Of a stretch of 64,000 bases of DNA, positions 6,713 through 21,949 are shown one piece after another (positions within the stretch are counted from its first letter, which is position 1; every line of letters begins with the position of its first letter). This DNA comes from Sulfuritalea hydrogenivorans sk43H (GTDB taxonomy: Bacteria > Pseudomonadota > Gammaproteobacteria > Burkholderiales > Rhodocyclaceae). The notes below the pieces were generated by a model. It made no database searches. It was given only the letters and a program-made list of their open reading frames with translations, and was not told the DNA's origin. The DNA lies in NCBI RefSeq assembly GCF_000828635.1, contig NZ_AP012547.1, forward strand, positions 248,001-312,000, written 5' to 3'. Both the position numbers and the translations under genes were made by a program.

Positions 6713-6809
6713 CCCTCTTTCCAGGAAAGAGGGTGACCACGGTTCAGCCGCTGACGCGGCTTCCGCAGCGTACACTCCCGCCTTCTTGGGGCGGCCCGGC
6801 GGAGGCGGC
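6713..6809 (+). promoter_or_regulatory. Structured leader element (hairpins A, B, C), copy 1
   Basis: Hairpin A: CCCTCTTT/AAAGAGGG (6713-6733). A conserved linker TGACCACGGTTC follows. Hairpin B: AGCCGC, tgac, GCGGCT (6746-6761), then TCCG. Hairpin C: arm CCGCCTTC (6778-6785), loop TTGGGGCGGCCCGGC (6786-6800), arm GGAGGCGG (6801-6808), 8 bp including one G-U pair. The ATG of the next gene is at 6810, so the purine-rich 3' arm is also the likely ribosome binding site. Matching copies precede 17370 and, on the minus strand, 20358 and 21852. Confidence 0.7.
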
Positions 6810-7838
6810 ATGAATCGCCTGCGCCTGGTCCTGATCAGCCTGTTCCTCGCCGCCTCGATCGCGGTGGTGGTTGCCTACAACCTGCACAAGCCGCGCGTGC
6901 TGGTGCTGCAAAGCTACGACCTGACCTACCCGTGGACGCGCGAAGTGACGGTCGGCGTGCGTCGCGTGCTGGACGAGCATTCGCATTTCGCCGTGCGCTG
7001 GTTCTACATGGACACCAAGCGTCATCCGGAGAAAGAGTTCAAGCAGAAAATGGGGTTCGCGGCGCGCCAGTCGATCGACCGCTGGAAGCCGGACGTCATC
7101 ATTGCCGTGGACGACGACGCGCAGGAATTCGTCACCCGGCATTACGTCAATCATCCGCAAATCAGGATCGTCTTCGCCGGGGTCAATGGCAGCATCGAGC
7201 CCTACGGCTTCGCGGGTGCCGGCAACGTGACCGGAATTCTCGAGCGCAAGGATTTGCACGCGCTGAAGGAAGCGCTGCTGGCCCTGCGCTGGCAACGGCC
7301 TGCTGCAGGCCCGCTGCGGCTGGTACATATCGGCGACAGGTCGAGTTCGGTCGAGCACGACGACCATCACATGCGCGAGTTCGACTGGAAGCCCCTGGTC
7401 AATCTTCCGGCGCGCAGGCCGGCCAGCTTCGATGACTGGAAAAAGGCGGTACTCGAAGTGCAGGACAAGACCGATTTCATCCTCACCACCAACTACCGCA
7501 GGCTCAGCCGCGATGCCGCGAACCGTGCCCTGGTGCCGCCGGAGGAAGTGGTGGCGTGGACGGTCGCCAACAGCCGCGTGCCGGTCGTGGGCACCAACGG
7601 CTTCTTTGTCGAAGACGGCGGCGAACTGGCGATCGGAACTTCGCCCTACGAGCAGGGCGAAGTCGCCGCGCGCATGGCGATCAGGCTGCTCGGCGGAACC
7701 GGTGCCGGTGACATTCCGCACGCCAGCTCGCGCCAGTTCGTGGTCTATATGCGCAGCGCCAGGCTGCACCGGCGCGGCATGGAATTGCCCCCGCTGTATG
7801 AGGCGTTTGCGCGGGCCACCAACAACGACTTGCCTTAA
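6810..7838 (+). CDS. ABC transporter substrate-binding protein-like (PF04392-type) protein, membrane anchored
   Basis: 342 residues. An N-terminal hydrophobic segment (residues ~4-22) without an obvious cleavage site is followed by a periplasmic-binding fold beginning RVLVLQSYDLTYPWTREV, the type seen in PF04392 binding proteins and in sensory domains of some two-component proteins. No permease or ATPase genes lie beside it, so it may act as a sensor or orphan binding protein. The ATG at 6810 sits directly after the structured leader; the longer upstream open frame overlaps the preceding gene and is not credible. The ligand is unknown. Confidence 0.65.
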   Translation: MNRLRLVLISLFLAASIAVVVAYNLHKPRVLVLQSYDLTYPWTREVTVGVRRVLDEHSHFAVRWFYMDTKRHPEKEFKQKMGFAARQSIDRWKPDVIIAVDDDAQEFVTRHYVNHPQIRIVFAGVNGSIEPYGFAGAGNVTGILERKDLHALKEALLALRWQRPAAGPLRLVHIGDRSSSVEHDDHHMREFDWKPLVNLPARRPASFDDWKKAVLEVQDKTDFILTTNYRRLSRDAANRALVPPEEVVAWTVANSRVPVVGTNGFFVEDGGELAIGTSPYEQGEVAARMAIRLLGGTGAGDIPHASSRQFVVYMRSARLHRRGMELPPLYEAFARATNNDLP

Positions 7839-7875
7839 TGCGATACTGGCAGACGGTCAACCAAGGAGGAATCAA

Positions 7876-9546
7876 ATGAACAAGCCGTGGCTCAAGCACT
7901 ATCCGGTCGGCGTGCCGGAGGAAATCGACCCGACCCAGTACGAGACCGTGGCCCGGGTGCTCGAAGAGGCGATGCAGAAATACGCCGCACGCACCGCCTT
8001 TATCTGCATGGGCAAGTCGATCACCTACGCGCAGATCGACACCGCCTCGCGCGGCCTGGGTGCCTGGCTGCAGTCGCGCGGCATCGCCCCCGGCGGGCGC
8101 GTCGCGATCATGATGCCCAACATCATGCAGTACCCGGTCGCTGTCGCCGCGATCCTGCGTGCCGGCTACGTGGTGGTGAACGTCAATCCGCTCTATACGC
8201 CGCGCGAACTGGAGCACCAGCTCAAGGACAGCGGCGCCGAGGCCATCGTCATCATCGAGAACTTCGCCACGACGCTGGAAAAGGTCATTGCCAACACGCC
8301 CGTCAAGCACGTGGTGGTGGCAGCGATGGGCGATCTGCTGGGCGGCTTCAAGGGCACGCTGGTCAATTTCGTCGTGCGTCGCGTCAAGAAAATGGTGCCC
8401 GAGTTCTCGCTGCCGGGTTCGCTGCGCTTCAACGACGCCGTGGCCCAGGGCTCCGGCATGACGCTGAAAACCGTGCCGCGCACCCGCGACGACGTCGCTT
8501 TCCTGCAATACACGGGAGGCACCACCGGCGTGTCGAAAGGCGCCACCCTGCTCAACCGCAACATCGTCGCCAACATGCTGCAAGTCGAGGAATGGATGCA
8601 GCCGGCGATCAACACGCACACCGACGAGCAGCACAACTTTGTCTGCGCCCTGCCCCTGTATCACATCTTCGCGTTGACGGTCTGCAACATGATCGGCATG
8701 CGCACCGGCTCTTGCAACCTGCTGATCCCCAATCCGCGCGACATCCCCGGTTTCGTCAAGGAATTGTCGACCTTCAAGTTCAATGTGTTTCCCTGCCTCA
8801 ACACGCTGTTCAATGCGCTGGCCAACAACCCCGAGTTTGCCAAGCTCGACTTCTCGACGCTGAAGATCAGTCTCGGCGGCGGCATGGCCACGCAACGGCC
8901 GGTGGCCGAGAAGTGGATGGCGCTGACCGGCAGCGCGATTGTCGAGGGCTACGGGCTCTCGGAAACCTCGCCGGTGGCGACCTGCAACGTCTCCACCCTC
9001 AAGGGATTTACCGGCACCATTGGTTTGCCCGTGTCATCCACCGAGATCGCGATCCGCGACGACAATGGCGCCAATGTCCCGCTGGGCGAGTCTGGCGAAA
9101 TCTGCATCCGCGGTCCGCAGGTGATGGCCGGCTACTGGCAGCGCCCCGACGAGACGGCGAACGTGATGACGGCCGACGGCTTCTTCAAGTCGGGCGACGT
9201 CGGCATCATGGACGAGACCGGCGCCACGCGCATCGTCGACCGCAAGAAGGACATGGTGCTGGTCTCGGGCTTCAACGTCTATCCGAGCGAGATCGAGGAG
9301 GTCGCCATGAAGTGCCCCGGTGTCATGGAGGCCGCGGTGATCGGTGTGCCCGACGAGCATTCGGGCGAGGTGCCGAAGATATTCATCGTCAAGAAGGACC
9401 CGGCGCTGACCGAGCAGGTCGTGCAGGACTTTCTCAAGGAGAACCTCACTGGCTACAAGCGGCCGAAATATGTCGAATTCCGCGCCGATTTGCCGAAGAC
9501 GCCGGTGGGCAAGATCCTGAGGCGCGAGCTGCGGCCGAAGAGCTGA
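7876..9546 (+). CDS. fadD: Long-chain fatty acid-CoA ligase
   Basis: 556 residues, the usual length for FadD. This AMP-forming enzyme activates free fatty acids with ATP and CoA at the inner membrane for beta-oxidation or lipid synthesis. The nucleotide-binding motif YTGGTTGVSKGA is at ~211, the adenylate motif EGYGLSETSP at ~360, DGFFKSGDVG and the hinge DRKKDMVLVSGFNVYP at ~455, and the C-terminal catalytic lysine is in PKTPVGKILRRELR. AAGGAGG lies upstream of the ATG at 7876. It stands 37 bp after the binding-protein gene and may be cotranscribed with it. Confidence 0.92.
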   Translation: MNKPWLKHYPVGVPEEIDPTQYETVARVLEEAMQKYAARTAFICMGKSITYAQIDTASRGLGAWLQSRGIAPGGRVAIMMPNIMQYPVAVAAILRAGYVVVNVNPLYTPRELEHQLKDSGAEAIVIIENFATTLEKVIANTPVKHVVVAAMGDLLGGFKGTLVNFVVRRVKKMVPEFSLPGSLRFNDAVAQGSGMTLKTVPRTRDDVAFLQYTGGTTGVSKGATLLNRNIVANMLQVEEWMQPAINTHTDEQHNFVCALPLYHIFALTVCNMIGMRTGSCNLLIPNPRDIPGFVKELSTFKFNVFPCLNTLFNALANNPEFAKLDFSTLKISLGGGMATQRPVAEKWMALTGSAIVEGYGLSETSPVATCNVSTLKGFTGTIGLPVSSTEIAIRDDNGANVPLGESGEICIRGPQVMAGYWQRPDETANVMTADGFFKSGDVGIMDETGATRIVDRKKDMVLVSGFNVYPSEIEEVAMKCPGVMEAAVIGVPDEHSGEVPKIFIVKKDPALTEQVVQDFLKENLTGYKRPKYVEFRADLPKTPVGKILRRELRPKS

Positions 9547-9623
9547 CGCCCCGCCCCCGGCCGCGCCGTCCGGCGGCCGGGGGCTCTTGTGACAGAATCG
9601 ACCCATTGACCATGGAATCCGCA

Positions 9624-10301
9624 ATGCGCTCAGTCTTCGCCCTGCTTGCCGGCCTGCTGCTGGCCACCGCCGCCAACGCCCTGTCCCTCGCCGACATTTC
9701 AGGCAGGGATGCCAATGGCGGCCTCAAGGAGGCGCTGACGCAGGGCGCCGCCAAGGCAGTCGATGTGCTGGGGCGGCAGGATGGATTCCTCGGCAATCCG
9801 AAAGTCAGGATCCCGCTGCCCGAAAGCGTGCAGAAGGTCGAGGGCCTGATGCGCGGGCTCGGCATGGGCAAGCAGGCCGATGAACTGCTCACCGCCATGA
9901 ATCGCGCCGCCGAAGCCGCGGTACCGCAGGCCAAAGTGCTGCTGGTGAATTCGATCAAGCAAATGTCGGTGGAGGATGCCAAGTCCATCCTGTCCGGCGG
10001 CGAGGATTCGGCGACCCAGTACTTTCGCCGTACTACCTCCGGGCCTCTGGCGGAAAAGTTCAAGCCCGTGGTGCAGAAGGCCATCGCCCGTGTCAAACTG
10101 GCGGAGAAATATGATCAGTTCGCCGGCAAGGCCGCGAAGTTCGGCCTGGTCCGCGAGCAGGATGCCCATCTGGAAAATTACGTTACGCAAAAGGCGCTGG
10201 ATGGCCTTTACCTGATGATCGCCGAGGAAGAAAAGGCGATCCGCAAGAACCCCGCTGAGGCAGTCGGCAAATTGGCGAAAAAGGTGTTCGGCGCACTTTA
10301 A
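9624..10301 (+). CDS. DUF4197 family exported protein
   Basis: 225 residues with a clear signal peptide (RSVFALLAGLLLATAANA) and then an alpha-helical, charged body matching the DUF4197 family: GLKEALTQGAAKAVDVLG near the start and KALDGLYLMIAEEEKAIRKN at the end. The function of this family is not known; the protein is probably periplasmic. The ATG at 9624 gives the neatest signal peptide, with GGA eight to ten bases upstream; an in-frame ATG at 9612 is possible. It lies 77 bp downstream of fadD and is followed after 14 bp by a small gene. Confidence 0.8.
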   Translation: MRSVFALLAGLLLATAANALSLADISGRDANGGLKEALTQGAAKAVDVLGRQDGFLGNPKVRIPLPESVQKVEGLMRGLGMGKQADELLTAMNRAAEAAVPQAKVLLVNSIKQMSVEDAKSILSGGEDSATQYFRRTTSGPLAEKFKPVVQKAIARVKLAEKYDQFAGKAAKFGLVREQDAHLENYVTQKALDGLYLMIAEEEKAIRKNPAEAVGKLAKKVFGAL

Positions 10302-10315
10302 GAGTGGAATTGAAA

Positions 10316-10540
10316 ATGAAAATTGATTTGCGCACCATCTACCGCTTTCAGCCGATGGAATATTCCGGCGGCTTGCCGACCGGCGGCGACGTGTATTACG
10401 AATGCGAATGCGGCGACATCGTCAGCTCGGTCAGCTTCGTCAAGGCGGCCTGCAAGTGTGGCAACGTGACGGGCGCTCAGGGAGCCGTCACGATTCAATC
10501 GCCGGAGAAGGTGAAACCGCTGCGCGGCAAGCTGCGCTGA
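10316..10540 (+). CDS. Small conserved-looking hypothetical protein with Cys pairs
   Basis: 74 residues. The middle holds ECECGDIVSS and later ACKCG, two C-x-C pairs about 20 residues apart that could bind a metal in a zinc-ribbon-like fold. The C terminus is basic. I do not recognise a family. The ATG at 10316 is preferred; a GTG at 10304 in frame would add four residues. It lies 14 bp after the DUF4197 gene. A copy of the 22-bp repeat follows its stop codon. Confidence 0.55.
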   Translation: MKIDLRTIYRFQPMEYSGGLPTGGDVYYECECGDIVSSVSFVKAACKCGNVTGAQGAVTIQSPEKVKPLRGKLR

Positions 10541-10548
10541 ATCCTGAC

Positions 10549-10570
10549 AGTCGGCGCTGGCGGTACGGCG
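10549..10570 (+). repeat. Dispersed 22-bp repeat, copy 2
   Basis: Full match to the consensus (variable pair GT). It lies in the 48-bp spacer before the rep helicase gene. Confidence 0.75.
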
Positions 10571-10588
10571 CCGTCGGTACGTCCATCC

Positions 10589-12568
10589 ATGGTTAAACTG
10601 AACGCGGCTCAACTCGAGGCTGTGCGCCATCTCGACGGCCCGCTGCTGGTGCTGGCCGGCGCCGGCTCGGGGAAGACGCGCGTCATCACGCACAAGATCG
10701 CCTGGCTGGTCGACGACTACGGCGTCAAGCCCTCGCAGATCGCCGCGATCACCTTCACCAACAAGGCGGCGAAGGAGATGAAGGAGCGCGTCGGCAAGCT
10801 GATCGGCGGCCGCGCCGAAGGCCTGACCGTCAGCACCTTTCACGCGCTCGGCGTGCGCATCCTGCGCCAGGAGGCGGCATCGGTCGGGCTCAAGCCCGGA
10901 TTTTCGATTCTCGATGCGGCCGACACCACGGCCCTGTTTCAGGAACTCGCGGGCAATATCGACAAGGGCCGGCTGCGCGCCCTGCAATCGCGCATCTCGC
11001 TGTGGAAGAACATGCTCGTCGATCCGGCAGCCGCGCTGCAGGATGCGGCGGACGAGATCGAGGCAACCGCGGCGAAGCTCTACGTCGACTACGAACGCAC
11101 CCTGCGTGCCTACCAGGCGGTGGACTTTGACGACCTGATCCGCCTGCCGGTGACGCTGTTCGCTGAGCACGACGCGGTCGCGCAACGCTGGCGCAGCCGC
11201 ATCTGGCACTTGCTGGTGGACGAATACCAGGACACCAATCGCTGCCAGTACCGCCTGGTCCAATTGCTGACGCAAGGGCGCGATTCCTTCACCGCGGTCG
11301 GCGACGACGACCAGTCGATCTACGCCTGGCGCGGCGCCGACAGCGAGAACCTGCGCCTGTTGAAGGACGACTACCCGGCCCTGAAAGTGATCAAGCTGGA
11401 GCAGAACTACCGCTCCACCTCGCGCATCCTGCACGCCGCCAACACGCTGATCGCGAACAACCCCAAGCTGTTCGAGAAGAAGCTGTGGTCCGAACACGGG
11501 CAGGGTGATGCGATCCACATCCAGACCTGCCGCGACGGCGAGCACGAAGCGGAATGGGTTGGCTCGCGCCTGTCCGCGCATCGCTTCGAGCGGCGCACGA
11601 AATTTTCCGACTACGCCATCCTCTATCGCGGCAACCACCAGGCGCGCGTGATCGAGCAGCAGTTGCGCGCGCAGCGGATTCCCTACGTGATCTCCGGCGG
11701 CCAGTCCTTCTTCGACCGCGCCGAAATCAAGGACATCACCTGCTACCTGCGCCTGCTGGCCAACCAGGACGACGATCCGGCCTTCATCCGCGCCGTGACC
11801 ACGCCCAAGCGCGGAATCGGCGGCACCACGCTGGAAGGTCTCGGCCGTGCAGCCGGGCGCAGCCACCAGAGCCTGTTCGCAGGCATTTACGCTCCGGGTC
11901 TGGATGCCGACCTCAATACCAAGCAGCGCACGGCACTGCGCGAATTCGGCGACTTCATCAATCGCATCGAGGCGCGCGCGGCCAAAGAGCCGGCCGGCCA
12001 GGTGCTCAACGACCTCATCCGCGCCATCGGCTACGAGAGCTGGCTGTTCGAGTCGCTCGACGTGCGCGAGGCCGAAACCAAGTGGGCCAACGTCTGCGAC
12101 TTCGTCGAGTGGCTGGGCCGCAAGGGCGAGGAGGAGGGCAAGACCCTGCTCGAACTGGCGCAGTCCGTGGCATTGCTGTCGATGCTGGACAAGGGCGACG
12201 AAGAACAGGACGCCGTGCAGCTGGCTACCCTGCACGCGGCCAAGGGCCTCGAATTCCGCCACGTGTTCCTGGTCGGCGTCGAGGAGGGCCTGCTGCCACA
12301 TCGCGACTCGATCGAACCGGCCAAGCTGGAAGAGGAGCGCCGCCTGATGTACGTCGGCATCACGCGGGCGCAGGCCAGCCTGACCGTGACCTGGTGCGAG
12401 AAGCGCAAGCAGGGGCGGGAATCCATGCCGCGCGAGCCTTCGCGTTTCATTGTCGAAATGGGCGAAGCGGCGCAGAAAGCCTCGGAACAAAGGAACACGG
12501 TACCCGATGCCGATACCGCCCGCGCCAAGGCGAGCGCCTTGCGGGCCATGCTTGCCGCAAAGCGTTAG
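10589..12568 (+). CDS. rep: ATP-dependent DNA helicase Rep (UvrD/Rep superfamily 1A)
   Basis: 659 residues, close to E. coli Rep. A 3'-5' single-strand DNA translocase that helps replication forks past bound proteins. All superfamily-1 motifs are present: Walker A GAGSGKT (~28), AITFTNKAAKEM (Ia), LLVDEYQDTN (Walker B, ~210), VGDDDQSIYAWRGA (III), EQNYRS (IV), LATLHAAKGLEF (V) and YVGITRAQ (VI). A perfect palindromic terminator follows the stop. The start is the ATG at 10589 with the sequence MVKLNAAQLEAV, typical of the family. Confidence 0.95.
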   Translation: MVKLNAAQLEAVRHLDGPLLVLAGAGSGKTRVITHKIAWLVDDYGVKPSQIAAITFTNKAAKEMKERVGKLIGGRAEGLTVSTFHALGVRILRQEAASVGLKPGFSILDAADTTALFQELAGNIDKGRLRALQSRISLWKNMLVDPAAALQDAADEIEATAAKLYVDYERTLRAYQAVDFDDLIRLPVTLFAEHDAVAQRWRSRIWHLLVDEYQDTNRCQYRLVQLLTQGRDSFTAVGDDDQSIYAWRGADSENLRLLKDDYPALKVIKLEQNYRSTSRILHAANTLIANNPKLFEKKLWSEHGQGDAIHIQTCRDGEHEAEWVGSRLSAHRFERRTKFSDYAILYRGNHQARVIEQQLRAQRIPYVISGGQSFFDRAEIKDITCYLRLLANQDDDPAFIRAVTTPKRGIGGTTLEGLGRAAGRSHQSLFAGIYAPGLDADLNTKQRTALREFGDFINRIEARAAKEPAGQVLNDLIRAIGYESWLFESLDVREAETKWANVCDFVEWLGRKGEEEGKTLLELAQSVALLSMLDKGDEEQDAVQLATLHAAKGLEFRHVFLVGVEEGLLPHRDSIEPAKLEEERRLMYVGITRAQASLTVTWCEKRKQGRESMPREPSRFIVEMGEAAQKASEQRNTVPDADTARAKASALRAMLAAKR

Positions 12569-12592
12569 CCTTGTGAATGTCGTCCGGAAAGC

Positions 12593-12618
12593 AAAAGGGA
12601 CCGCATGCGGTCCCTTTT
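12593..12618. terminator. Bidirectional intrinsic terminator
   Basis: A perfect 26-bp palindrome: AAAAGGGACCGC, AT, GCGGTCCCTTTT. It has A and T runs at its outer ends, so it can act on both strands. It lies between the convergent rep and cytochrome genes. Confidence 0.85.
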
Positions 12619-12639
12619 GTCTCGTGTGGCGCGGCCGTA

Positions 12640-13077
12640 TTATTTGGCTGCCGGTTCCTTGAAGCTGGCGCCGGACTTGTTCGCCATATACACAATGGTG
12701 CGAGCCAGTTCGGTGTCGTTGGCGTCCGAGCCGCCCTTGGGCGGCATGGCATTCTTGCCCGCGGTGGCCGACTTCAGCAAGCCGTCGAGCCCCAGCGCGA
12801 TGCGCGGCGCCCAGGCGCCCTTGTCGCCCAGCTTGGGTGCGTTGGCGACGCCGGCGTCATGGCAGGCGGCACAGCTTGCCTTGTAGATCTGCTCGCCGCT
12901 CCGATTGCCCGCCGCGGCACCGGCTGCTGCGGCAGCGATCTCGACGCGGGCCACCGGGGCGATGCGGTTGTTGGCGGCTTCCTCGTCGCCTTTGGGCCGG
13001 CCGCCCATGGCAAGCGCGGTGACGGATACCGTGAGTGCTCCCACGGCAGCGAGGGTGCGGATAGTCAAATGGAACAT
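12640..13077 (-). CDS. Periplasmic cytochrome c5-like monoheme protein
   Basis: 145 residues with a signal peptide (HLTIRTLAAVGALTVSVTALA), an Ala-rich linker and a class I cytochrome domain. The haem site is SCAACH, and the likely axial methionine lies in KNAMPPKGG, the pattern of the c5 family. It should be a soluble periplasmic electron carrier. The ATG at 13077 has GGAAAG upstream; 13101 is an in-frame alternative. It converges on rep with a shared terminator, and its partner enzymes are not evident from the neighbours. Confidence 0.82.
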   Translation of the reverse strand: MFHLTIRTLAAVGALTVSVTALAMGGRPKGDEEAANNRIAPVARVEIAAAAAGAAAGNRSGEQIYKASCAACHDAGVANAPKLGDKGAWAPRIALGLDGLLKSATAGKNAMPPKGGSDANDTELARTIVYMANKSGASFKEPAAK

Positions 13078-13140
13078 GGGCGGGCTTTCCGGAATAGTCA
13101 TACGAAGCATTGGATTATAGTGGATTCGCTGGCCCCGCAA

Positions 13141-13169
13141 TGGACGCCGGCACCTGAACGCGCTATGCT
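13141..13169 (+). promoter_or_regulatory. Candidate sigma-70 promoter for the tRNA-Arg gene
   Basis: TGGACG (-35-like, 13141-13146) and TATGCT (-10-like, 13164-13169) are separated by 17 bases. The -10 lies about 12 bases before the mature tRNA end. Each hexamer matches the consensus at four of six positions. Confidence 0.4.
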
Positions 13170-13181
13170 TCGCCCCCTCGC

Positions 13182-13257
13182 GCGCTCGTAGCTCAATGGA
13201 TAGAGTACTGGCCTCCGAAGCCAGGGGTTGTGGGTTCGATCCCCGCCGAGCGCGCCA
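13182..13257 (+). tRNA. tRNA-Arg (anticodon CCG)
   Basis: 76 bases folding as a standard cloverleaf. The acceptor arms GCGCTCG and CGAGCGC pair fully, with discriminator G and an encoded CCA. The anticodon stem is CTGGC/GCCAG with loop CTCCGAA, giving CCG. The T-loop is GTTCGAT. It decodes CGG codons. Confidence 0.97.
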
Positions 13258-13270
13258 CTTCCCTTTCGTC

Positions 13271-14704
13271 CTATTCGCGAATCGCCTGAAACCTTGCCAG
13301 GGTGCGCGCCCGCGCTTCAGCGTGGTCGACCACCGGCGCCGGATAGTCCGCGCCGATGCGGACGCCGCAGGCGGCTTGTTCCGCGGCGCTCATCTTCCAC
13401 GGTGCGTGGATGAACTTCTGAGGCACGCGGGCAAGCTCGGGCACGTAGCGACGGATGAAGCGGCCCTCCGTGTCGAACTTTTCGGACTGCGTGACCGGAT
13501 TGAAAATGCGGAACCAGGGTTGCGCGTCGCAACCCGTGGAAGCAGCCCACTGCCAGCCGCCGTTGTTGGCGGCGAGATCGAAGTCGAGCAGCTTTTCGGC
13601 GAACCAGGCTTCGCCCTGCCGCCAGTCGAGGCCGAGGTCCTTGGTCAGGAATGACGCGACGATCATGCGCAGGCGGTTGTGCATCCAGCCCGTGGCAACC
13701 AGCTGGCGCATCGCGGCATCCACCAGTGGGTAGCCGGTGCGGCCCGCGCGCCAGGCATCGAGCAGATCGGGCGCGTCGTCCCAGCGCAGGGCGTCGAACG
13801 CCGGCTTGAAGCACTGCGTCGCGACGCGCGGCTGATGCCAGAGGATGGCGTGGTAGAAGTCGCGCCAGATCAGCTCGGAGAGCCAGGTCGACGCGCCCCT
13901 TCCCGCCTGTGCATGCGCGTAGGCGGCCAGCTGGCGAATCGAGATCGTGCCGAAACGCAGGTGCGGCGAAAGGCCGGAGGTGCCCCCGATGGCCGGGAAA
14001 TCGCGTGTCGCGGCGTAGTCGTCGATGCGCTCGATGAAGTCGCGGAACAGTGCTTGCGCACCACTCATGCCGGTGGGCACACCCAGCGCGGCCAGATCGG
14101 TCGCTTCGAAACCCAGGTCGCGCAGCGTCGGCAGCGGAGCGTCGTCGCGCGGTGGCGCAAGGTGGGATGCATAGTCCTCGATCGGCCATGAGCGCAGGGC
14201 GGTCGGATCGAGCCGCTTCAGCCAGGCATTCTTGTAAGGCGTAAATACCGAGAAAGGCGTGCCGCCTTGCGTCATCACCTCGCTGCGATCGAAAATCACC
14301 TGATCCTTGAAATCATGAAAGTTATGCGAAGCGGTATCCCCGGGGACGGCGCTGGCGGTACGGCGTTTGACCTCCGCGTCGCGGGCGATGGCCGCCGGTT
14401 CGTAGTCGCGATTGGCATAAACGGCGCTGACGCCAAGCTCGGCGGCGAGCCGGGGAATTTCGACGAGCGGATCGCCATGGCGCACGATCAGTGCGCCGCC
14501 CATTGCGCGCAGCGCGGCGTCGACCTCCTCCACTGCGCGCAGGATGAATTCGACGCGCCGGTCGCGGCGCGGCAGCGCATCGAGGATAGTCGTGTCAAAG
14601 ACGAAGACGCAATGCACCCGCGGGTGCGCTCGCAACGCCTGATGCAGCGCGGCGTGGTCGTAGGTGCGCAGATCGCGGCGGAACCAGACGAGGGCGGCGG
14701 ACAT
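13271..14704 (-). CDS. phrB: Deoxyribodipyrimidine photolyase
   Basis: 477 residues, the length of class I CPD photolyases. It uses FAD and blue light to split pyrimidine dimers. The N-terminal antenna-binding fold starts [16 protein letters not shown]. The FAD-binding half shows [29 protein letters not shown], and [20 protein letters not shown], which includes the tryptophan-rich FAD-binding core. The start ATG at 14704 matches the family N terminus. A copy of the 22-bp repeat (14344-14365) lies inside the gene, read as RRTASAV. It is divergent from algH. Confidence 0.93.
14344..14365 (+). repeat. Dispersed 22-bp repeat, copy 3 (two mismatches)
   Basis: It matches 20 of the 22 consensus positions (variable pair GT; the first and third bases differ). 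It lies inside phrB, where the opposite strand encodes RRTASAV, a different reading frame from the copies in ilvD and yggT. Confidence 0.5.
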
Positions 14705-14745
14705 GGGGGATGGACGCGGGGATACTCGGGAACGGACTGACAGAT

Positions 14746-14751
14746 TACAAT
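14746..14751 (+). promoter_or_regulatory. Candidate -10 box for the algH-ruvX-pyrR-pyrB operon
   Basis: TACAAT lies 12 bases before the algH ATG, so the transcript would have a very short leader. No strong -35 is visible at the right distance. Confidence 0.35.
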
Positions 14752-14763
14752 AGCGCCACATTC

Positions 14764-15336
14764 ATGGACACCGTCAGTCTCGCCAACCACTTTCTGATCG
14801 CCATGCCCGCCATGGCCGACCCGAATTTTTCCCGCACACTGACCTATATCTGCGAACACAACGCGGACGGCGCGATCGGCATCATCGTCAATCGCCCGAT
14901 GGACATGAGCCTTGCCGGCCTGTTCGATCGTGTCAGCATTCCCCTCGAAAACGAGCAGACCGAGGCGCGCTTCGCCGGCCTCCCGGTGTATTTCGGCGGC
15001 CCGGTGCAAACCGACCGCGGCTTCGTCCTGCATCGACCGGCGGGGCACTGGCAGTCTTCGCTCAGTGTCAGCGACGACATCGCCCTGACCAGTTCGCGCG
15101 ACATCCTGCAATCCATGGGTAGCACCGGCGAACCGGCCGAGGTGCTGGTCAGCCTCGGCTATGCCGGCTGGACCGCTGGGCAACTGGAATGGGAGCTGTC
15201 GCAGAACGCCTGGCTGACGGTCGCCGCCGAGGCCGGCATCATTTTCGACATGCCGGCCGAAGAGCGGTTGCCGGCCGCGATGCAGTTGCTCGGCATCGAT
15301 TTCGCCAATCTTTCCGAAGTGGCCGGACATGCCTGA
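14764..15336 (+). CDS. algH: UPF0301 protein YqgE/AlgH
   Basis: 190 residues of the YqgE/AlgH family, with the conserved opening [20 protein letters not shown] and [16 protein letters not shown]. The molecular role of this family is not firmly known; in Pseudomonas it was linked to alginate regulation. The start at 14764 matches the family N terminus. It overlaps ruvX by 8 bp, and the pair is almost always adjacent in proteobacteria, which supports both calls. It heads an operon running into pyrimidine synthesis genes. Confidence 0.92.
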
Positions 15337-15796
15337 CGGCTCCGTGCTCGCCTTCGATTTCGGGACAAAGCGCATCGGCGTCGCCATCGGCGTGGTAATG
15401 GATACCCGGCTCGACGCCGGACGCTTCGGCCCCGCGCGCGCCCTGACGGTGATCGACAGCGAGAGCAACGACGCCCGCTTCGCGGCGGTTGCCAGCCTGA
15501 TCGCGGAGTGGCAGCCGGTGCGCCTGCTGGTGGGCCGGCCCTTGAACGAAGACGGCACCCCGCACGACATGACGGCACGCTGCGAGCGCTTCGCCAACCA
15601 GTTGCGCGGGCGCTTTCGCCTGCCGGTGGATGAAGTCGACGAGCGCTTCAGCTCGACCGAAGCCGATGCCGGCCTGCGCGAACGCGGGCTTTCCTGGCAG
15701 CAGCGCAAGACGCAGATCGATGCCGAGGCCGCACTCATCATTCTCCAAAGCTGGTTCGATGCCCATGCCCACGCCACAAACCATGCACCTGCCTGA
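15329..15796 (+). CDS. ruvX: Putative pre-16S rRNA nuclease / Holliday junction resolvase RuvX (YqgF)
   Basis: 155 residues with an RNase H-like fold: [15 protein letters not shown] holds the first catalytic Asp, [10 protein letters not shown] the second acidic site, and [17 protein letters not shown] the C-terminal acidic motif. The family processes the 5' end of 16S rRNA and has been proposed as a junction resolvase. It overlaps both neighbours (algH by 8 bp, pyrR by about 14 bp), indicating tight translational coupling. Confidence 0.92.
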
Positions 15797-16280
15797 CGCC
15801 GAAGCGCTCTGCGCCGCCCTCGCCGATGCCATGCGGGCCCACGTCGATCCCGCGAGGACCGCGCTGGTCGGCATCCACACCGGCGGCGTCTGGGTCGCCG
15901 AGCGGCTGCATGCGGCGCTCGGCCTCAACATTCCGTCCGGCTCGATCGACGTTTCCTTCTACCGCGATGACTACAACCAGCGCGGCCTGCACGCCAACGC
16001 CAAGACTTCGCAGATTCCCTTCGATGTCGAGGGCGCGCACATCGTCATCGTCGACGACGTGCTCTACACCGGACGCACCATTCGCGCCGCGATGAACGAA
16101 CTGTTCGACTATGGCCGGCCGGCAAAGATCGACCTGGCGGTACTGACCGATCGCGGTGGCCGCGAACTGCCCATTGCGCCGACTTTCTGTCCGCATTCGC
16201 TGAACCTGCCCGTTGCGCAGATGCTGGCGCTGGAGCGGGTCGAAGGCGGCAAACTTTCCTTCCGGCTGATGGAGAAATGA
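15783..16280 (+). CDS. pyrR: Bifunctional pyrimidine operon regulator / uracil phosphoribosyltransferase
   Basis: 165 residues of the PyrR family. The PRPP-binding signature [16 protein letters not shown] is complete, and [14 protein letters not shown] is the usual N-terminal loop. In some bacteria PyrR binds pyr mRNA to cause attenuation; in this lineage an enzymatic role is as likely. The start at 15783 follows the family pattern HLPDAEAL; in-frame ATGs at 15765 and 15759 are also possible. It overlaps the end of ruvX and its own end overlaps pyrB by 4 bp. Confidence 0.9.
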
Positions 16281-17254
16281 GCGCGATGAACACCGGCGGC
16301 AATCCGCAACTCAACAGCCACGGCGAATTGCAGCATCTGCTGACCATCGAGGGCCTGCCGCGCGACGTGCTGACGCGCATCCTCGATACCGCGGCGCCGT
16401 TTTCCGAGGTCGCCGAGCGCGAAGTGAAGAAGGTGCCGCTGCTGCGCGGCAAGAGCGTGTTCAACCTGTTCTTCGAGAATTCGACGCGCACCCGCACCAC
16501 CTTCGAGATCGCGGCCAAGCGGCTTTCCGCCGACGTCATCAACCTCAACATCAGCACCTCCTCGGCGAACAAGGGCGAGACCCTGCTCGACACGGCGGAC
16601 AACCTCGCCGCGATGCAGGCCGACATGTTCGTCGTGCGCCACGCCTCGAGCGGCGCGCCCTACCTGATCGCGCAGCACCTGGCTGCCACCGGGCGCGACC
16701 ACATCCACGTGGTGAACGCCGGCGACGGCCGCCATGCGCATCCGACGCAGGGCCTGCTCGACATGTACACCATCCGCCACTACAAGCAGGATTTCAGCCA
16801 GCTCACCATCGCCATCGTCGGCGACGTGCTGCATTCGCGCGTGGCGCGCAGCCAGATCCACGCCCTGACCACCCTGGGCGTGCCCGAAGTGCGCGTCATC
16901 GCACCGAAGACCCTGCTGCCGACCGGCATCGAACGCCTCGGCGTGCGGGTGTTCAACGACATGCGCGAGGGCCTGCGCGGGGTCGATGTAGTCATGATGC
17001 TGCGCCTGCAGAACGAGCGCATGCAGGGCGCGCTGCTGCCCTCGACGCAGGAGTATTTCAAGTCCTGGGGCCTGACGCCGGAAAAGCTCCAACTGGCCAA
17101 GCCCGATGCCATCGTGATGCATCCGGGGCCGATGAACCGCGGCGTCGAGATCGACTCGGCGGTGGCCGATGGCGGCCAGGCCGTGATCCTGCCGCAGGTC
17201 ACCTTCGGCATCGCGGTGCGCATGGCGGTGATGGCCATGCTGGCGGGGAACTGA
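16277..17254 (+). CDS. pyrB: Aspartate carbamoyltransferase catalytic subunit
   Basis: 325 residues. It condenses carbamoyl phosphate with aspartate, the committed step of UMP synthesis. The carbamoyl-phosphate motif [13 protein letters not shown] is at ~72 and [12 protein letters not shown] at ~154. This longer ATCase class normally assembles with a dihydroorotase-like partner, here the non-catalytic protein encoded next. The gap to that partner holds a structured leader element, so expression of the second subunit may be set separately from pyrB. Confidence 0.95.
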
Positions 17255-17272
17255 TGAGTACCTTCCCCCCAT

Positions 17273-17369
17273 CCCCCTTCCCGTGGAAGGGGGTGACTTT
17301 GGTTCGCGGGCTATGCCCGCTCCGTAGTGTTGGTTGGCTGCCTCCTTGGGGCGGCCCGGCGGAGGCAGC
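17273..17369 (+). promoter_or_regulatory. Structured leader element (hairpins A, B, C), copy 2
   Basis: Hairpin A: CCCCCTTCC, cgt, GGAAGGGGG (17273-17293). Linker TGACTTTGGTTC. Hairpin B: GCGGGC, tat, GCCCGC (17306-17320), then TCCG. Hairpin C: GCTGCCTCC (17337-17345), loop TTGGGGCGGCCCGGC, GGAGGCAGC (17361-17369), a perfect 9-bp stem that ends at the ATG. It lies between pyrB and pyrC'. Stem sequences differ from copy 1 but remain paired. Confidence 0.75.
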
Positions 17370-18653
17370 ATGAAAATCCATATCAAGAACGGTCGCCTGA
17401 TCGACCCGGCGAGCAAGACCGACAAGGCGCTCGACCTGTTCATCGCTGCCGGTCGCATAGTCGGCGTTGGCGCCGCGCCGGCCGGATTCGAGGCCAACAG
17501 CGTGCTCGATGCGACGGGGTGCATCGTCTGTCCGGGGCTGATCGATCTGGCTGCAAGGCTGCGCGAACCGGGCTTTGAATACCGCGCCACGCTTGAATCC
17601 GAAATGGCCGCCGCGGCTGCCGGCGGCGTGACTCGACTGGCCTGCCCGCCGGATACCGATCCGGTGCTGGACGAGCCGGGGCTGGTGGAAATGCTGACGC
17701 ACCGGGCGCGCTTGCCCGAGTTTGCCCACGTCCATCCGGTGGGCGCCCTCACCGTGCAACTCGAAGGCAAGGCGCTGACCGAAATGGCGGAGCTGGCCGA
17801 AGCCGGCTGTGTCGCATTCGGCCAGGCCAATCGCGCGATCGTCGATACGCAGGTGCTGCTGCGCGCCATGATGTACGCGGCGACTTTCGACTTCCCGGTC
17901 TGGTTGCAGGCGCAGGACCCCTTCCTGGCTCGCAAGGGCGTCGCCCACGACGGCGAAGTTGCGGCGCGCCTCGGGCTGGCCGGCATTCCGGTGGCGGCGG
18001 AAACCATCGCCCTGGCGACCATATTGCATCTGGCGCGCGAGACCGGCGCGCGGGTGCACGTGACCCGCATTTCGTCGGCTGCCGGCGTCGACATGATCGT
18101 CGCCGCGCGCGCCGCCGGCATCGCGGTGACCTGCGACGTGGCGATCCATCACCTGCACCTCTGCGAGATGGACATCGGCTTCTTCAACGCCCACGCCCGG
18201 CTCGATCCGCCGCTGCGCTCCACGGGCGATCGCGATGCCTTGCGCGCAGGCCTGGCCTCGGGCGCGATCAACGCGCTGTGTTCCGACCACACGCCGGTCG
18301 ATGACGACGGCAAGCAGATGCCCTTCGACGAAGCCGAAGTCGGTGCCACCGGACTCGAACTGCTGCTGCCGCTGACCCTCAAGTGGGCGCAGGAAATGAA
18401 GCTGCCGCTGCTGACGGCGCTGGCCCGCGTTACCTCCGATCCGGCGCGCATTCTCGGCGTCAAGGCCGGCAATCTGGCGCCGGGCGCCGCCGCCGACATC
18501 TGCGTGTTCGATCCGGCGGCCGGGTTCAAGGCCAGTCGCGAAAATCTTCGCAGCCAGGGCAAGAACACGCCCTTCCTCGGCCAGGAGTTTTCCGGTCGCG
18601 TGCGCTATACCCTGATCGACGGCCACCTGGCTTTCGACGGCACGCTGGGCTGA
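17370..18653 (+). CDS. pyrX: Dihydroorotase-like protein lacking catalytic His pair (PyrC'/PyrX)
   Basis: 427 residues of the amidohydrolase fold. Active dihydroorotases carry H-x-H after GLIDL for zinc binding; here it reads GLIDLAARLREPG, so both histidines are replaced by Ala and Arg-side residues and zinc cannot bind there. NALCSDHTPVD is kept. In Pseudomonas and relatives such inactive homologues are structural partners required for ATCase holoenzyme. A separate active pyrC is expected elsewhere in the genome. The ATG at 17370 directly follows the leader hairpin. A 239-bp inverted-repeat element begins at the stop codon. Confidence 0.88.
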   Translation: MKIHIKNGRLIDPASKTDKALDLFIAAGRIVGVGAAPAGFEANSVLDATGCIVCPGLIDLAARLREPGFEYRATLESEMAAAAAGGVTRLACPPDTDPVLDEPGLVEMLTHRARLPEFAHVHPVGALTVQLEGKALTEMAELAEAGCVAFGQANRAIVDTQVLLRAMMYAATFDFPVWLQAQDPFLARKGVAHDGEVAARLGLAGIPVAAETIALATILHLARETGARVHVTRISSAAGVDMIVAARAAGIAVTCDVAIHHLHLCEMDIGFFNAHARLDPPLRSTGDRDALRAGLASGAINALCSDHTPVDDDGKQMPFDEAEVGATGLELLLPLTLKWAQEMKLPLLTALARVTSDPARILGVKAGNLAPGAAADICVFDPAAGFKASRENLRSQGKNTPFLGQEFSGRVRYTLIDGHLAFDGTLG

Positions 18654-18891
18654 GAGCTTGTGAATAAATCTACTGCGCGCGCCGGATCGGGGTTTGGGCG
18701 GTGCTCTTCCACGGCCCGCTTTGCACAGCGGGCCGGCTGCGGCGGCGCAAAGCATGCTTTGCGAAACCCCGCCTCGCCCTCATGTACAGAGACGTACATT
18801 CCGGTAGCTGCGCTCCGGCCGCACCCCGCTGCGGCCACGCGGCTACGCCCCGAAGGAAGTCCCCTTGGGGGACGATTTCTTCACAAGCTCT
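18653..18891. repeat. Inverted-repeat-bounded, hairpin-rich intergenic element
   Basis: The ends are 18-bp inverted repeats with one mismatch (AGAGCTTGTGAATAAATC at 18653 and its complement ending 18891). Inside are several hairpins: GGCCCGCT, ttgcac, AGCGGGCC (18713-18734); CGCAAAGC, AT, GCTTTGCG (18746-18763); and a GTAC-flanked pair near 18783-18796. No coding sequence is credible. The section 18708-18769 is related, with paired base changes, to the complement of 21955-22021. It may be a MITE-like element or a structured RNA; it also covers the whole spacer after pyrC'. Confidence 0.65.
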
Positions 18892-18912
18892 GAGTTCCCA
18901 CGCGCGGCCTAC

Positions 18913-20049
18913 CTAGCGATAGCGCTCCGGCAGCACTTGGGGCGCGATCACCTGTTGCGTGGCGTGCTCGATGCTGTGCAGCATGGCCATTTCACGCGGC
19001 GCGACCAGCAGGATCGCGGTAGCTCCGCGTTTGGCCTTGTCCAGATGCGCGATCCGGCGCACATGGGATGCGGCGTCGCAGGGCATGTCGTAGCTGATGA
19101 CGTGGGTCAGGCGCGTGGCATCGAGTCCTTCGACCGCCAGATCGGTGCCGACCACGATGTCGATCGCTCCGTTCCTGAAGCGATCGAACGCCTGCGTGCG
19201 TTGCTTGCGCGGCGAGTCGGCGCCGAGTGCTTCCGCCGCATAGCCGCGCGCTCGCAGCTTTTCGGTCAGCTTCAGGGCGGTGGCTTTGCCGCGAACGAAC
19301 ACGACAGCCGCGTCGAAACCCGGCTCCACTTCGAAAATGCGCGTCAATGCATTGAGCTTCGCCGCGCTGTCCACCTGCCAGTAGCGCAGCCGGGCCGGAG
19401 GGGCCACCGCCGATTTTTCCGTTCCCCTTACCTTCACGGGCTTGCGCAAGCGTCGCTGCACGAGTTGGCGCAGGCGCACGGGCAGGGTTCCGGAGAAGAT
19501 CGCGATCTGGCTTCGGGCGTCGGTGTGATCGAGAAGCCGCTCGATATCGTCGATGAAGCCTTCGCGCAGCATCGCATCGGCTTCGTCGAGCACCAGGCGC
19601 CCGATCCCGTCGAGGCTCAGGGAACTGTTATCGACATGATGCGCGACCCGGCGCGGCGTGCCCACCACCACATGGGTTCCGCGCTTCAACTGGCGCAACT
19701 GGATCGACGAGCTCTGGTGATAGATCGGCAGCACATGAAAGTTCGGGAGATATTTTCCGTAGTCCTGAAAGACCTCCGCGACATGCAGCGAGGTTTCGTC
19801 TGAGGGCGTCAGTACCAGCACCTGGGGTTGCCCACGGTCGATATCCAGGGTTTCCAGCAGCGGCAGCACGAAGGCCATGGTCCGCCCGGTGCCGGTGTCG
19901 GCATGGGCGAGCAGGTCACGGCCGGCCAGCAGCGACGGAATGCACGCGACCTGGAGATGCGACGGTATGTCGTGGCCGGATTCCTTCAGCCTTCGCATCA
20001 GCGGGGCGGAGAATTCAAATTGATCGAATCGTTCAATGCGGGATGTCAT
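18913..20049 (-). CDS. Degenerate DEAD-box RNA helicase-like protein, probably inactive as an ATPase
   Basis: 378 residues with both RecA-like domains of a DEAD-box helicase, but several catalytic motifs are altered. Walker A is TGTGRT instead of TGTGKT (codon CGG), motif Ia PTREL is PSDET, motif III SAT is SGT, motif V ARGLD is VEGLD, and motif VI HRIGRTGR is RRIAHLDK, removing the arginine finger. LDEADAML is intact. The frame is full length without stops, and there is no C-terminal extension, so it looks maintained rather than decayed. It might bind RNA without unwinding it. It is the last gene before the yggU block on the same strand. Confidence 0.8.
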   Translation of the reverse strand: MTSRIERFDQFEFSAPLMRRLKESGHDIPSHLQVACIPSLLAGRDLLAHADTGTGRTMAFVLPLLETLDIDRGQPQVLVLTPSDETSLHVAEVFQDYGKYLPNFHVLPIYHQSSSIQLRQLKRGTHVVVGTPRRVAHHVDNSSLSLDGIGRLVLDEADAMLREGFIDDIERLLDHTDARSQIAIFSGTLPVRLRQLVQRRLRKPVKVRGTEKSAVAPPARLRYWQVDSAAKLNALTRIFEVEPGFDAAVVFVRGKATALKLTEKLRARGYAAEALGADSPRKQRTQAFDRFRNGAIDIVVGTDLAVEGLDATRLTHVISYDMPCDAASHVRRIAHLDKAKRGATAILLVAPREMAMLHSIEHATQQVIAPQVLPERYR

Positions 20050-20064
20050 GCCGGGAACGCCGAA

Positions 20065-20358
20065 TCAGTGATGAATCGGGAATGCCCCGGCGACCGATGT
20101 CCGGTCGACACCGCATACGCGCACCCGCTTGGCGCGGGACGACTCGCCGCTGACCAGGCTGACCGCCGCCCTGGCGACACCCAGCCGATCGGCGAGAAAC
20201 GCGATCAGGCAGGCATTGGCCTTGCCATCCACCGGCGGCGCGGCGAGCCGGATTTTCAGTGCTTCGCCGTGGAGTCCAACCGCTTCGGTTTTTTTCGCGC
20301 CGGGCTGGATGTGCAAGCGCAGCGTCACGCCCTGATCGTCGGCGGTCAGCCAGGTCAT
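20065..20358 (-). CDS. yggU: DUF167 family protein YggU
   Basis: 97 residues of the small DUF167/UPF0235 family, whose signature is present: LRLHIQPGAKKTEAVGLHGE and APPVDGKANACLIAFLA. Function is unknown. It is found with yggT, proC and yggS in many proteobacteria, as here. Its ATG follows immediately after hairpin C of a structured leader that fills the gap from yggT. Confidence 0.9.
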   Translation of the reverse strand: MTWLTADDQGVTLRLHIQPGAKKTEAVGLHGEALKIRLAAPPVDGKANACLIAFLADRLGVARAAVSLVSGESSRAKRVRVCGVDRTSVAGAFPIHH

Positions 20359-20445
20359 GATCTGCCGCCGGGCCGCCCCAAGGCAGATCCGTCAAAAGCT
20401 TGCGAGCGCAGCGAACCGCGATCACCCCTTCTCATGGAGAAGGGG
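20359..20445 (-). promoter_or_regulatory. Structured leader element, copy 3
   Basis: Read on the minus strand: hairpin A CCCCTTCTC, cat, GAGAAGGGG (20425-20445); linker TGATCGCGGTTC; a less regular B region (GCTGCGCTCGCAAGC); hairpin C GATCTGCC, loop TTGGGGCGGCCCGGC, GGCAGATC (20359-20389), a perfect 8-bp stem. The ATG of yggU abuts the last stem base. The stem has no sequence in common with copies 1 and 2 beyond two or three bases, but the 15-base loop is identical. Confidence 0.75.
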
Positions 20446-20461
20446 CTGGGGGTTAAGTCGT

Positions 20462-21040
20462 TCATTGCACGAGCATCATCGGCAGCACGCCGTTGCGCAG
20501 GCTGGCGACGACGAACAGGGCGATTTGCAGCACCAGCAGCAGCGCCAGCGGCGAGAGGTCCACGCCGCCCACCGGCGGTATGACCCGGCGGAAGGGCCGC
20601 AGCAACGGCCGCGTCAGCGTGTTGAACACATCGGCCAGCGGTGCATGGGGGTTCACCCAGGAAAACACCGCCGACACCAGCACGGCGCCCATCACCAGAT
20701 ACAGGCTGATTTTCGCCACCTCCAGCAGCGCCAGCAGGGCAACCACGAGAGTCGGCGCTGGCGACACGGCGAGCAGTACCCCGGAAAAGCCCAGCGCGAT
20801 GCCCTGATAGGCCACCTGCCACAGCCAGGCCAGCAGCAGGCTCGCCATGTCCAGGCCGAACAGGCCGGGAACCATGCGGCGCAGCGGACGCACCATCCAG
20901 TCGGTGACGGCCACGATGAACTGCCCGAGCGGATTGCGGAATGGCGTGCGCGCCCATTGCATGGCGAACCGCACCAGCAGCGCCAGCGTCAGGAAGCCGC
21001 AAACGGTGTCGAGGACAAACAGGACTATCTGCGCCAGCAT
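20462..21040 (-). CDS. yggT: YggT family membrane protein
   Basis: 192 residues with two YggT repeats, each a pair of membrane segments with the R-x-x-x-P pattern: NPLGQFIVAVTDWMVRPLRR in the first half and NTLTRPLLRPFRRVIPPVGG in the second. Role unclear; homologues influence osmotic stress resistance and plastid/cell division factors. Its start overlaps the proC stop by one base (TGATG), so the two are translationally coupled. A 22-bp repeat copy lies inside the gene, read as AVSPAPT. Confidence 0.88.
   Translation of the reverse strand: MLAQIVLFVLDTVCGFLTLALLVRFAMQWARTPFRNPLGQFIVAVTDWMVRPLRRMVPGLFGLDMASLLLAWLWQVAYQGIALGFSGVLLAVSPAPTLVVALLALLEVAKISLYLVMGAVLVSAVFSWVNPHAPLADVFNTLTRPLLRPFRRVIPPVGGVDLSPLALLLVLQIALFVVASLRNGVLPMMLVQ
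20751..20772 (+). repeat. Dispersed 22-bp repeat, copy 4
   Basis: Full consensus match (variable pair AC), embedded in yggT, where the opposite strand encodes VSPAPT. The same peptide arises from the copy at 39649. Confidence 0.7.
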
Positions 21041-21852
21041 CAGTCTTTACCCAGCATGTCGCCGAGTTCCCGGCCGCGCGCTTCGGCGGCAAGGATGCCT
21101 TGCTCGATGGCGCCGGCAATGTCGTTGGCGCCGAAGGACAGCAGCGCTGCCTCGGTGGTGCCGCCCTTGGAGGTGACGCGCTCGCGCAAGGTCGAGATCG
21201 ACTCGCTGCTCTGCTCCGCCAGCCGGGCGGCGCCGAGAAAGGTTTCAACCGCCAGTTGGCGTGCGCTGCCCGGAGCAAAACCCAGATTGAGCGCGGCGGC
21301 CTCCATGGCTTCGAGAAAATAGAACACATAGGCCGGCCCGCTGCCGGAAACGGCGGTGACGGCATCCATTTTCGTTTCGTCATCGATCCATACCGTGCTG
21401 CCGACCGCCTTGAGAATCCTTTCCGCCGCGGTGCGTCCCTCCAGGTCCACGCTCGGGTCGGCGCACAGGCCGGTAATGCCGGCGCCGATCAGGGCCGGCG
21501 TGTTGGGCATGGTACGCACCACTTTGCGGTAATTGCCCAGCCAGCGCGAAATGTCGGCCATGCGCAGGCCGGCAGCGATGCTCACCACCAGTTGGTCGGT
21601 GAGCTTGCCGCGAATCGGGGCGACGGCTTCCCTGAGTTGCTGCGGCTTCACGGCGAGAATCAGGATCTCGCAGTTGAGCGCCGCGGCATCGACCGCGGCC
21701 GCGCAGCGCACGCCGAAGGTTTCGGCAAGCCTGTCGCGGGATTCCTGGAACGGCTCCACCACTTGTATGGCGGCAGCGGAAAAGCCCTGCTTGCGCAGGC
21801 CGCCGATCAGGGCCACGGCCATGTTGCCGCCGCCGATGAAGGTGATTTTCAT
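21040..21852 (-). CDS. proC: Pyrroline-5-carboxylate reductase
   Basis: 270 residues. It catalyses the final NAD(P)H-dependent step of proline synthesis. The Rossmann motif FIGGGNMAVALIGGL opens the protein, RTMPNTPALIGAG is the P5C-site loop, and GSGPAYVFYFLEAM plus SKGGTTEAAL are the C-terminal family signatures. The ATG at 21852 fits the family N terminus and lies six bases after a leader hairpin. It precedes yggT with a one-base overlap. Confidence 0.95.
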   Translation of the reverse strand: MKITFIGGGNMAVALIGGLRKQGFSAAAIQVVEPFQESRDRLAETFGVRCAAAVDAAALNCEILILAVKPQQLREAVAPIRGKLTDQLVVSIAAGLRMADISRWLGNYRKVVRTMPNTPALIGAGITGLCADPSVDLEGRTAAERILKAVGSTVWIDDETKMDAVTAVSGSGPAYVFYFLEAMEAAALNLGFAPGSARQLAVETFLGAARLAEQSSESISTLRERVTSKGGTTEAALLSFGANDIAGAIEQGILAAEARGRELGDMLGKD

Positions 21853-21858
21853 GTCGAT

Positions 21859-21949
21859 GTCGTCTCCGCGGGGCCGCCCCAAGGAGACGACCAGCCAATG
21901 AATCGGAGCAAGCGCAGCTTGCGAACCGTAGTCATCCCCTTCCTTGGGG
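21859..21949 (-). promoter_or_regulatory. Structured leader element, copy 4
   Basis: On the minus strand: a short hairpin A (CCCC/GGGG near 21936-21949), linker TGACTACGGTTC, hairpin B GCAAGC, tgc, GCTTGC (21908-21922), TCCG, then hairpin C GTCGTCTCC, loop TTGGGGCGGCCCCGC, GGAGACGAC (21859-21891), a perfect 9-bp stem. The loop differs from the other copies by one base. The proC ATG is six bases further on. Confidence 0.75.

Follow-up and report, generated by a model that had tools for sequence, protein, structure and literature searches.

The four structured leaders found in a 64,000-nucleotide stretch of the Sulfuritalea hydrogenivorans sk43H genome (the window) are probably copies of a mobile element that is non-autonomous, rich in palindromes and most often 112 bp long. 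Its 3' hairpin recurs in a shorter repeat that is similar to the Beta-proteobacterial repeat element (BRE); no mobilising enzyme was found for the element. In comparisons of genome sequences, a given junction is filled in some close relatives and empty in others; the copies read in the genus are placed nearly all between co-directional genes, mostly flush with a stop and a start codon, and have one commonest spacing whichever way they are oriented. The initial annotation had offered a translation switch, an RNA processing site or a mobile repeat landing at start codons; the last fits best, and the other two are unsupported as the cause of the conservation, since antisense copies, whose transcript contains the loop's complement, retain stem and loop all the same, and the right-arm Shine-Dalgarno motif is found mostly in sense copies.

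Architecture of the window copies

The common architecture noted for the four leaders was recovered at the positions claimed: each consists of hairpin A, a TGAY-N3-GGTTC linker, hairpin B and hairpin C, the last with loop TTGGGGCGGCCCGGC in the window copies and the variant TTGGGGCGGCCCCGC in the proC copy. With up to two mismatches, the 17-mer used for searching had five matches in the window (0.18 expected), four of which are the reported copies. In the window, the element extends from the stop codon of one gene to 0-7 nt before the next start. The 3' arm had been said to end 0-6 bases from ATG; the 8-bp right arm does lie beside the ATG, at a slightly wider distance of 0-7 nt.

Copy 1 (6698..6809, plus strand, 112 bp) runs from ATGA at 6694-6697, the stop of a DASS-like transporter gene, to the ATG at 6810, and its hairpin C (6778..6808, plus) has arms at 6778-6785 and 6801-6808, the latter being GGAGGCGG with a Shine-Dalgarno-like GGAGG, around a loop at 6786-6800. 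Copy 2 (17258..17369, plus, 112 bp) lies between the pyrB stop TGA at 17252-17254, within TGATGA, and the pyrC ATG at 17370, with hairpin C at 17338..17368 (plus; arms GCTGCCTCC/GGAGGCAGC) and a ninth pair between 17337 and 17369. Copy 3 (20359..20461, minus, 103 bp) connects the yggT stop (20462-20464) to the DUF167/yggU ATG at 20358 and has hairpin C at 20359..20389 (minus; arms GATCTGCC/GGCAGATC). Copy 4 (21853..22044, minus), at the yggS-proC junction, has hairpin C at 21860..21890 (minus; arms GTCGTCTCC/GGAGACGAC, loop TTGGGGCGGCCCCGC) and reaches 192 bp with an extra palindromic module nested in the hairpin-A loop, at 21946..22016 (minus; bounds approximate). Similar modules are found in L014, L146 and L157; palindromes of this kind (CTGGCTTTGCACAGCCAG, CGGAGCAGTGCTCCG or similar) in hairpin A were seen in these three loci, the window and L105, as if one element had been inserted into another.

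Distribution and placement in the genome and the genus

The TTGGGGCGGCCC core has 30 exact matches in the 3,802,648-base genome, and the reversed-pattern control has one. With up to one mismatch, 38 matches were placed in context, with gene ends from a home-made, simple codon-usage caller trained on the window; 34 are intergenic and four were called inside genes, of which two (L284, L288) have the look of chance matches and the other two, L287 (minus) and L009, have paired arms, L009 looking by eye like a miscalled antisense copy. All 34 intergenic copies lie between co-directional genes, as had been stated for the window (naive chance 6e-5 to 7e-4), 24 being sense to the operon (two in tandem at one junction) and 10 antisense. 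The proposed placement at start codons holds for sense copies, in which the right arm is beside the start codon; antisense copies have that end at the stop codon of the upstream gene, and their left end faces the start.

A covariance model, the search proposed in the initial annotation, was built from 22 copies of S. hydrogenivorans and gave many dispersed matches in the genome and its relatives, with at least 9 to at least 93 per genome in all 31 genus genomes, S. hydrogenivorans included (E-values rough), and at least 1,314 in sum. Eighty copies of the relatives, high-scoring ones among these at least 1,314, leaving aside the S. hydrogenivorans matches and some near contig ends or at loci already read, comprise 65 sense, 14 antisense and one called divergent (L332), so that 79 of the 80 are co-directional. 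Antisense copies make up 24 of 112 long-type genus copies, these 112 being what remains of 114 once L332 (-+ call) and a sense copy for which no start was found are dropped; for per-locus counts, each of 82 clusters (61 sense, 21 antisense) is represented by its first copy. Arms like CGCCGTCC/GGACGGCG are common to several antisense copies (L300, L317, L325, L341, L347, L362 and others), as if there were orientation-specific subfamilies, some of these copies being mutual orthologues.

Filled and empty junctions

At pyrB-pyrC, 29 genomes with both genes readable (S. hydrogenivorans included) comprise seven with the element, 16 with an empty junction of 4-16 nt and six with other inserts, a 30th locus (L162) being cut off and outside the count. 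The empty junctions of L158 and L159 read TGAACC-ATGA-AAAT and TGAACC-ATGA-AGAT, and the filled one of L157 reads TGAACC-ATGA-[element]-ATGA-AAAT. The six other inserts (L137, L156, L140, L145, L148, L149) are of three kinds, and the junction is an insertion hot spot. One kind is a 174-bp repeat and another a repeat of 147 bp whose inverted ends read CGTGAA[TG]AAATC; the third, of 1030 bp, contains an open frame of about 260 codons, the product of which may resemble a restriction enzyme. Six of the seven orthologous pyrC copies keep the same stem. The copy of L157 differs in its left flank from those of S. hydrogenivorans, L136, L147, L150 and L151, as though inserted independently at the same ATGA, but agrees with them in stem C and in the hairpin B arms, an agreement that the mobile-element account does not explain.

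At yggT-yggU, the 21 readable relatives include 12 with a bare ATGA overlap, five with GTGA, one with TGATGA and three in which the copy is degraded, composite or a remnant. S. hydrogenivorans, L108 and L110 have the element at yggS-proC, where the flanks point to GATATGA/GACATGA as a duplicated target. Another upstream module with the same 3' end occupies this junction in L105 and L109; a module (..CCCGCGCCAGCGCGG) joined to the 3' end CGGCCCGGCGG was seen at yggU and proC in L095, L105 and L109. An origin of the arms from the target was considered and rejected, as the empty proC, pyrC and yggU sites that were read lack the whole right arm (at proC, five bases agree).

Stop and start codon are most often 112 nt apart, whichever the orientation (20 of 82 sense and 9 of 23 antisense copies), with 115 nt next (16 sense, 6 antisense). 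Such equal spacing is expected if ATGA is duplicated, and is not if the element brings its own stop or start codon. ATGA stands at the fixed left and right places in 26 and 21 of the 61 sense loci, and TCAT in 7 and 9 of the 21 antisense loci; near both ends, within a few bases, they occur in 28 of 61 and 8 of 21. Similarity of the flanks beyond the ATGA core is weak (p = 0.018; the 31 of 34 S. hydrogenivorans copies that are flush).

Insertion at random, with survival only at junctions where both genes are spared, would need no target preference at all. It would agree with the gathering of other repeats at pyrB-pyrC, where insertions are tolerated, and with the presence of ATGA or TCAT at both fixed places in just 13 of the 61 sense and 4 of the 21 antisense loci. 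It is nevertheless an unlikely account, because convergent, divergent and mid-spacer places should be tolerated too, yet are hardly used by the long-type genus copies, only 34 of the 415 ATGA/TCAT sites of the window are wholly intergenic, and the spacing is equal in both orientations. Empty sites often are overlapping stop and start codons, a candidate for a definable target of a mobile repeat; overlapping ATGA and TGATG gene pairs are described as sites of termination-reinitiation coupling (PMC6728339, in the part of the text available).

Hairpin structure and covariation

In an alignment of 22 S. hydrogenivorans copies (A2), 93.0% of the cells pair, compared with 75.6% after shuffling and 50-59% after sliding, a score favoured by the derivation of the structure from A2 itself. 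Double-change cells number 108, compared with 33.9 shuffled and 16-26 slid, and the shuffle figures overstate significance, since related sequences are not independent. Two-sided changes were found at 18 of 26 pairs and, in hairpin C, at all 8, around a nearly invariant loop, so the claim that structure is kept as sequence drifts is borne out genome-wide. Covariation is well above both controls and placement relative to start and stop codons is non-random, so that the refuting outcome named in the initial annotation did not occur.

In 179 distinct arm pairs of other genomes, each of 8 stem C positions is paired in 75-97% of cases, pairs 1-2 not being free, since most of these loci were fetched with a pattern fixing the first two bases of the right arm. 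In the 28 arm pairs of S. hydrogenivorans the range is 68-93%, and in both sets pairing is at chance level by pair 10. Sets with one copy per genus locus (57 sense and 19 antisense arm pairs) have the same stem C pairing, with a ninth pair, several positions of the antisense set being too uniform for testing covariation. Of the fetched copies, 53 of 65 in sense and 9 of 14 in antisense orientation have the exact loop.

G-U pairs occupy only 19 of 572 cells in A2, and there are 108 double changes to 15 one-side changes, figures that seem to fit a constraint on DNA, or a one-step template-switch correction, better than slow compensation in RNA. Template switching would correct quasi-palindromes by changing both arms in one step, and stem C would then pair without any selection. 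The cell counts are what this process would leave behind; it is still improbable as the source of the stem, as pairs 3-8 include all four Watson-Crick types and pairing stops sharply after pair 8-9, like a defined functional length (both in the 179 arm pairs), and the arms are stable at the orthologous pyrC site.

Single-sequence folds, which are weak evidence, were uneven among eight sequences (z from -0.33 to -3.48), two of which (L015, L029) were folded as hairpin C and gene start only. Stem C is in the minimum-energy fold of six and missing in L019 and in copy 1 of the window (L004; hairpin C at 6778..6808). Where hairpin C folds, the loop is paired too, as TTGGG/CCCGG around GCGG with a bulged C.

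A cis-acting switch, in which hairpin C hides the Shine-Dalgarno sequence and the start codon and is opened by a factor, by temperature or by processing, is quite unlikely. In its favour are the GGAGG in the 3' arm of sense copies, which the minimum-energy fold pairs in L015 and in copy 2 of the window (L005), the retention of stem pairs 1, 2 and 4-8 in 51-55 of 57 distinct sense arm pairs, and the common stem of six of the seven pyrC orthologues. However, antisense copies keep stem and loop too, and the fold of L004 and L019 has no hairpin C. Pair 3 is C-A in 11 of the 57 sense arm pairs, with the A completing the right-arm GGAGG, as if the ribosome site outranked the pairing. The downstream genes give the impression of having no evident common pathway, and the comparison with Rfam 15, another of the checks proposed at the outset, gave no match over the element, either in the window at the gathering score or in five loci at E<=1. 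Covariation at start codons need not mean a riboregulator. A match to the ZMP/ZTP riboswitch (RF01750), unrelated to the element, was seen in L267 at 2814-2901.

Related repeats in other genera

In evenly drawn samples, the exact 17-mer was found in 4 of 274 class genomes and 37 of 399 order genomes, compared with model matches in every one of the 31 genus genomes, and some single matches (e.g., L033, L074, L080) look like chance. The matches listed (at least 120 stretches) include Hydrogenophaga, Variovorax, Polaromonas, Achromobacter, Bordetella, Sulfuritalea and others. At least three upstream modules were found on one hairpin C, which is all that the long type, that of the window, shares with a short type. 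The eight long-type sites of other genera include one convergent and one inside an open reading frame. Placement of the short type is looser: its 103 sites or arrays comprise 41 ++, 10 --, 18 convergent, 3 divergent, 5 without one neighbour and 26 in open reading frames, the last calls being unreliable since the element's own frames are often open. In G107, of another genus (L048), two short-type copies lie in frame within one cobyric acid synthase gene, at about 780-870 and 1440-1525 (NCBIfam E 4.9e-148 for the cobQ product). The short type was found in seven plasmid records and in no phage record, and plasmid records gave no match of the S. hydrogenivorans type.

The short type resembles BRE (Hot et al. 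2011), an identity inferred from the description and not from aligned sequences. According to the available part of that account (PMC3110155), the function of BRE was left open and its mobility was suspected by the authors. Short units measure 70-98 nt (mean 79, 80 units) and BREs 75-91; tandem arrays, a mostly intergenic position with some copies in genes, and hosts such as Bordetella, Polaromonas, Rhodoferax and Delftia, among the matches listed, are likewise common to both (PMC3110155). In contrast, the window copies are of the long type, 103-112 bp without the nested module, and are not in tandem; short units average 77% G+C and Bordetella BREs 69%, and the hairpin covariation, the stop/start target and the Shine-Dalgarno ends described here are absent from the available part of the BRE account (PMC3110155). 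BRE copies are described beside lexA in three Bordetella species, and none was found in 3.2 kb around lexA of one Bordetella (genomosp. 4, L294), a weak check given that no BRE context is conserved in B. avium (PMC3110155, from the same portion). The phrase "Beta-proteobacterial repeat element" led to no further paper in a literature search whose reach excluded most subscription papers. For BRE, whose function has been open since 2011, the present observations provide testable ideas.

MITE-like repeats (ERIC, RUP, Correia/NEMIS, YPAL) and Rickettsia palindromic elements are also small, dispersed, non-autonomous and highly base-paired, with filled and empty sites and some in-frame copies in genes, according to the accessible text of a review (PMC2229807), in which the term "start codon" does not occur. 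The element described here differs from them in being GC-rich and in having neither terminal inverted repeats nor TA termini (PMC2229807). Inspection of A2 revealed no terminal inverted repeats, the left end being like GACNACCNTCCCCCC and the right arm variable. For the putative target-site duplication, one clean set of filled and empty sites was observed, at pyrC. REP palindromes are likewise hairpins of variable stem dispersed in intergenic DNA; the hairpins in A2, however, do not consistently carry a GTAG or CGTC tag at their base (PMC3733652, in its available part).

Element ends and translation initiation

The right arm carries a Shine-Dalgarno motif (GGAG, GAGG or AGGA) at 46 of the 61 sense loci and 3 of the 21 antisense loci (p = 1e-6), and the left end carries one on the reverse strand at 8 of the 21 antisense and 4 of the 61 sense loci (p = 0.0014). 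A strict motif within 18 nt of the called start was found in only 9 of 24 antisense copies, and G-rich runs in most. In other genera, the right-arm motif occurs in 18 of 53 copies near a start and 5 of 127 far from one (p = 3e-7); in S. hydrogenivorans alone, the numbers are 14 of 19 and 3 of 8 (p = 0.10). T-rich left arms have the opposite distribution in short- and other-type copies of other genera (2 of 53 near, 28 of 127 far), and the arms thus match local use with their pairing mostly kept. Hairpin and loop are kept in both orientations and the right-arm motif is largely confined to sense copies, which argues for a constraint acting on the element itself, with its ends probably recruited as ribosome-binding sites. 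The two orientations offer a natural experiment, in which features that serve the element (hairpin, loop) may be told from those that serve the host (Shine-Dalgarno motif).

A T-rich left arm following a GC hairpin is terminator-like, and its prevalence far from starts is among the arguments for an RNA processing, termination or stability element of polycistronic mRNA, selected at operon junctions. Long-type genus copies are almost confined to co-directional junctions, short-type sites with a called left neighbour have a co-directional gene upstream in 62 of 75 cases, 45 of the 59 short-type ++ or +- sites are within 70 nt, and Northern blots of a BRE region in Bordetella detected RNAs of about 80 and 200 nt, according to the available part of the report (PMC3110155). 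Such selection as the origin of the element is somewhat unlikely, given its patchy occurrence even among congeners, its two orientations and the unrelated repeats at the same junction; a role in processing or termination may be a secondary use of a mobile element.

For the mobile element preferred here, the following course is indicated. The element would enter overlapping stop and start codons (ATGA, TGATG) and leave ATGA on both sides, so that both reading frames would survive. The downstream gene's ribosome-binding site would come to lie about 112 nt further upstream, and a Shine-Dalgarno motif in the element end facing the start codon would replace it. Translation of the downstream gene would presumably pass from coupled re-initiation to independent initiation, which, if true, would explain how coupled operon genes become uncoupled. 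Hairpin C, with its near-constant apex and varying paired arms, would be kept for a candidate trans-acting enzyme that recognises the folded strand. More tentatively, it is proposed that these repeats may belong to a class of mobile DNA with relatives across the Burkholderiales, in which the enzyme reads a folded hairpin and inserts the element into overlapping stop and start codons with both genes intact, and each end can become a ribosome-binding site, uncoupling the pair.

Candidate mobilising enzyme

A RAYT (Y1) transposase was considered as the mobiliser and rejected for lack of association, the gene being present in 23 of 37 genomes with the 17-mer and 220 of 362 without it. The flanks of 15 Y1 genes, searched with partial motifs, contained no copy of the element. 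A RAYT may nonetheless act on the element in trans. The S. hydrogenivorans genome has a single Y1/RAYT-like gene (L120, 3250496-3250822), flanked by GGGGACAG-type repeats that, by eye, are unrelated to the element.
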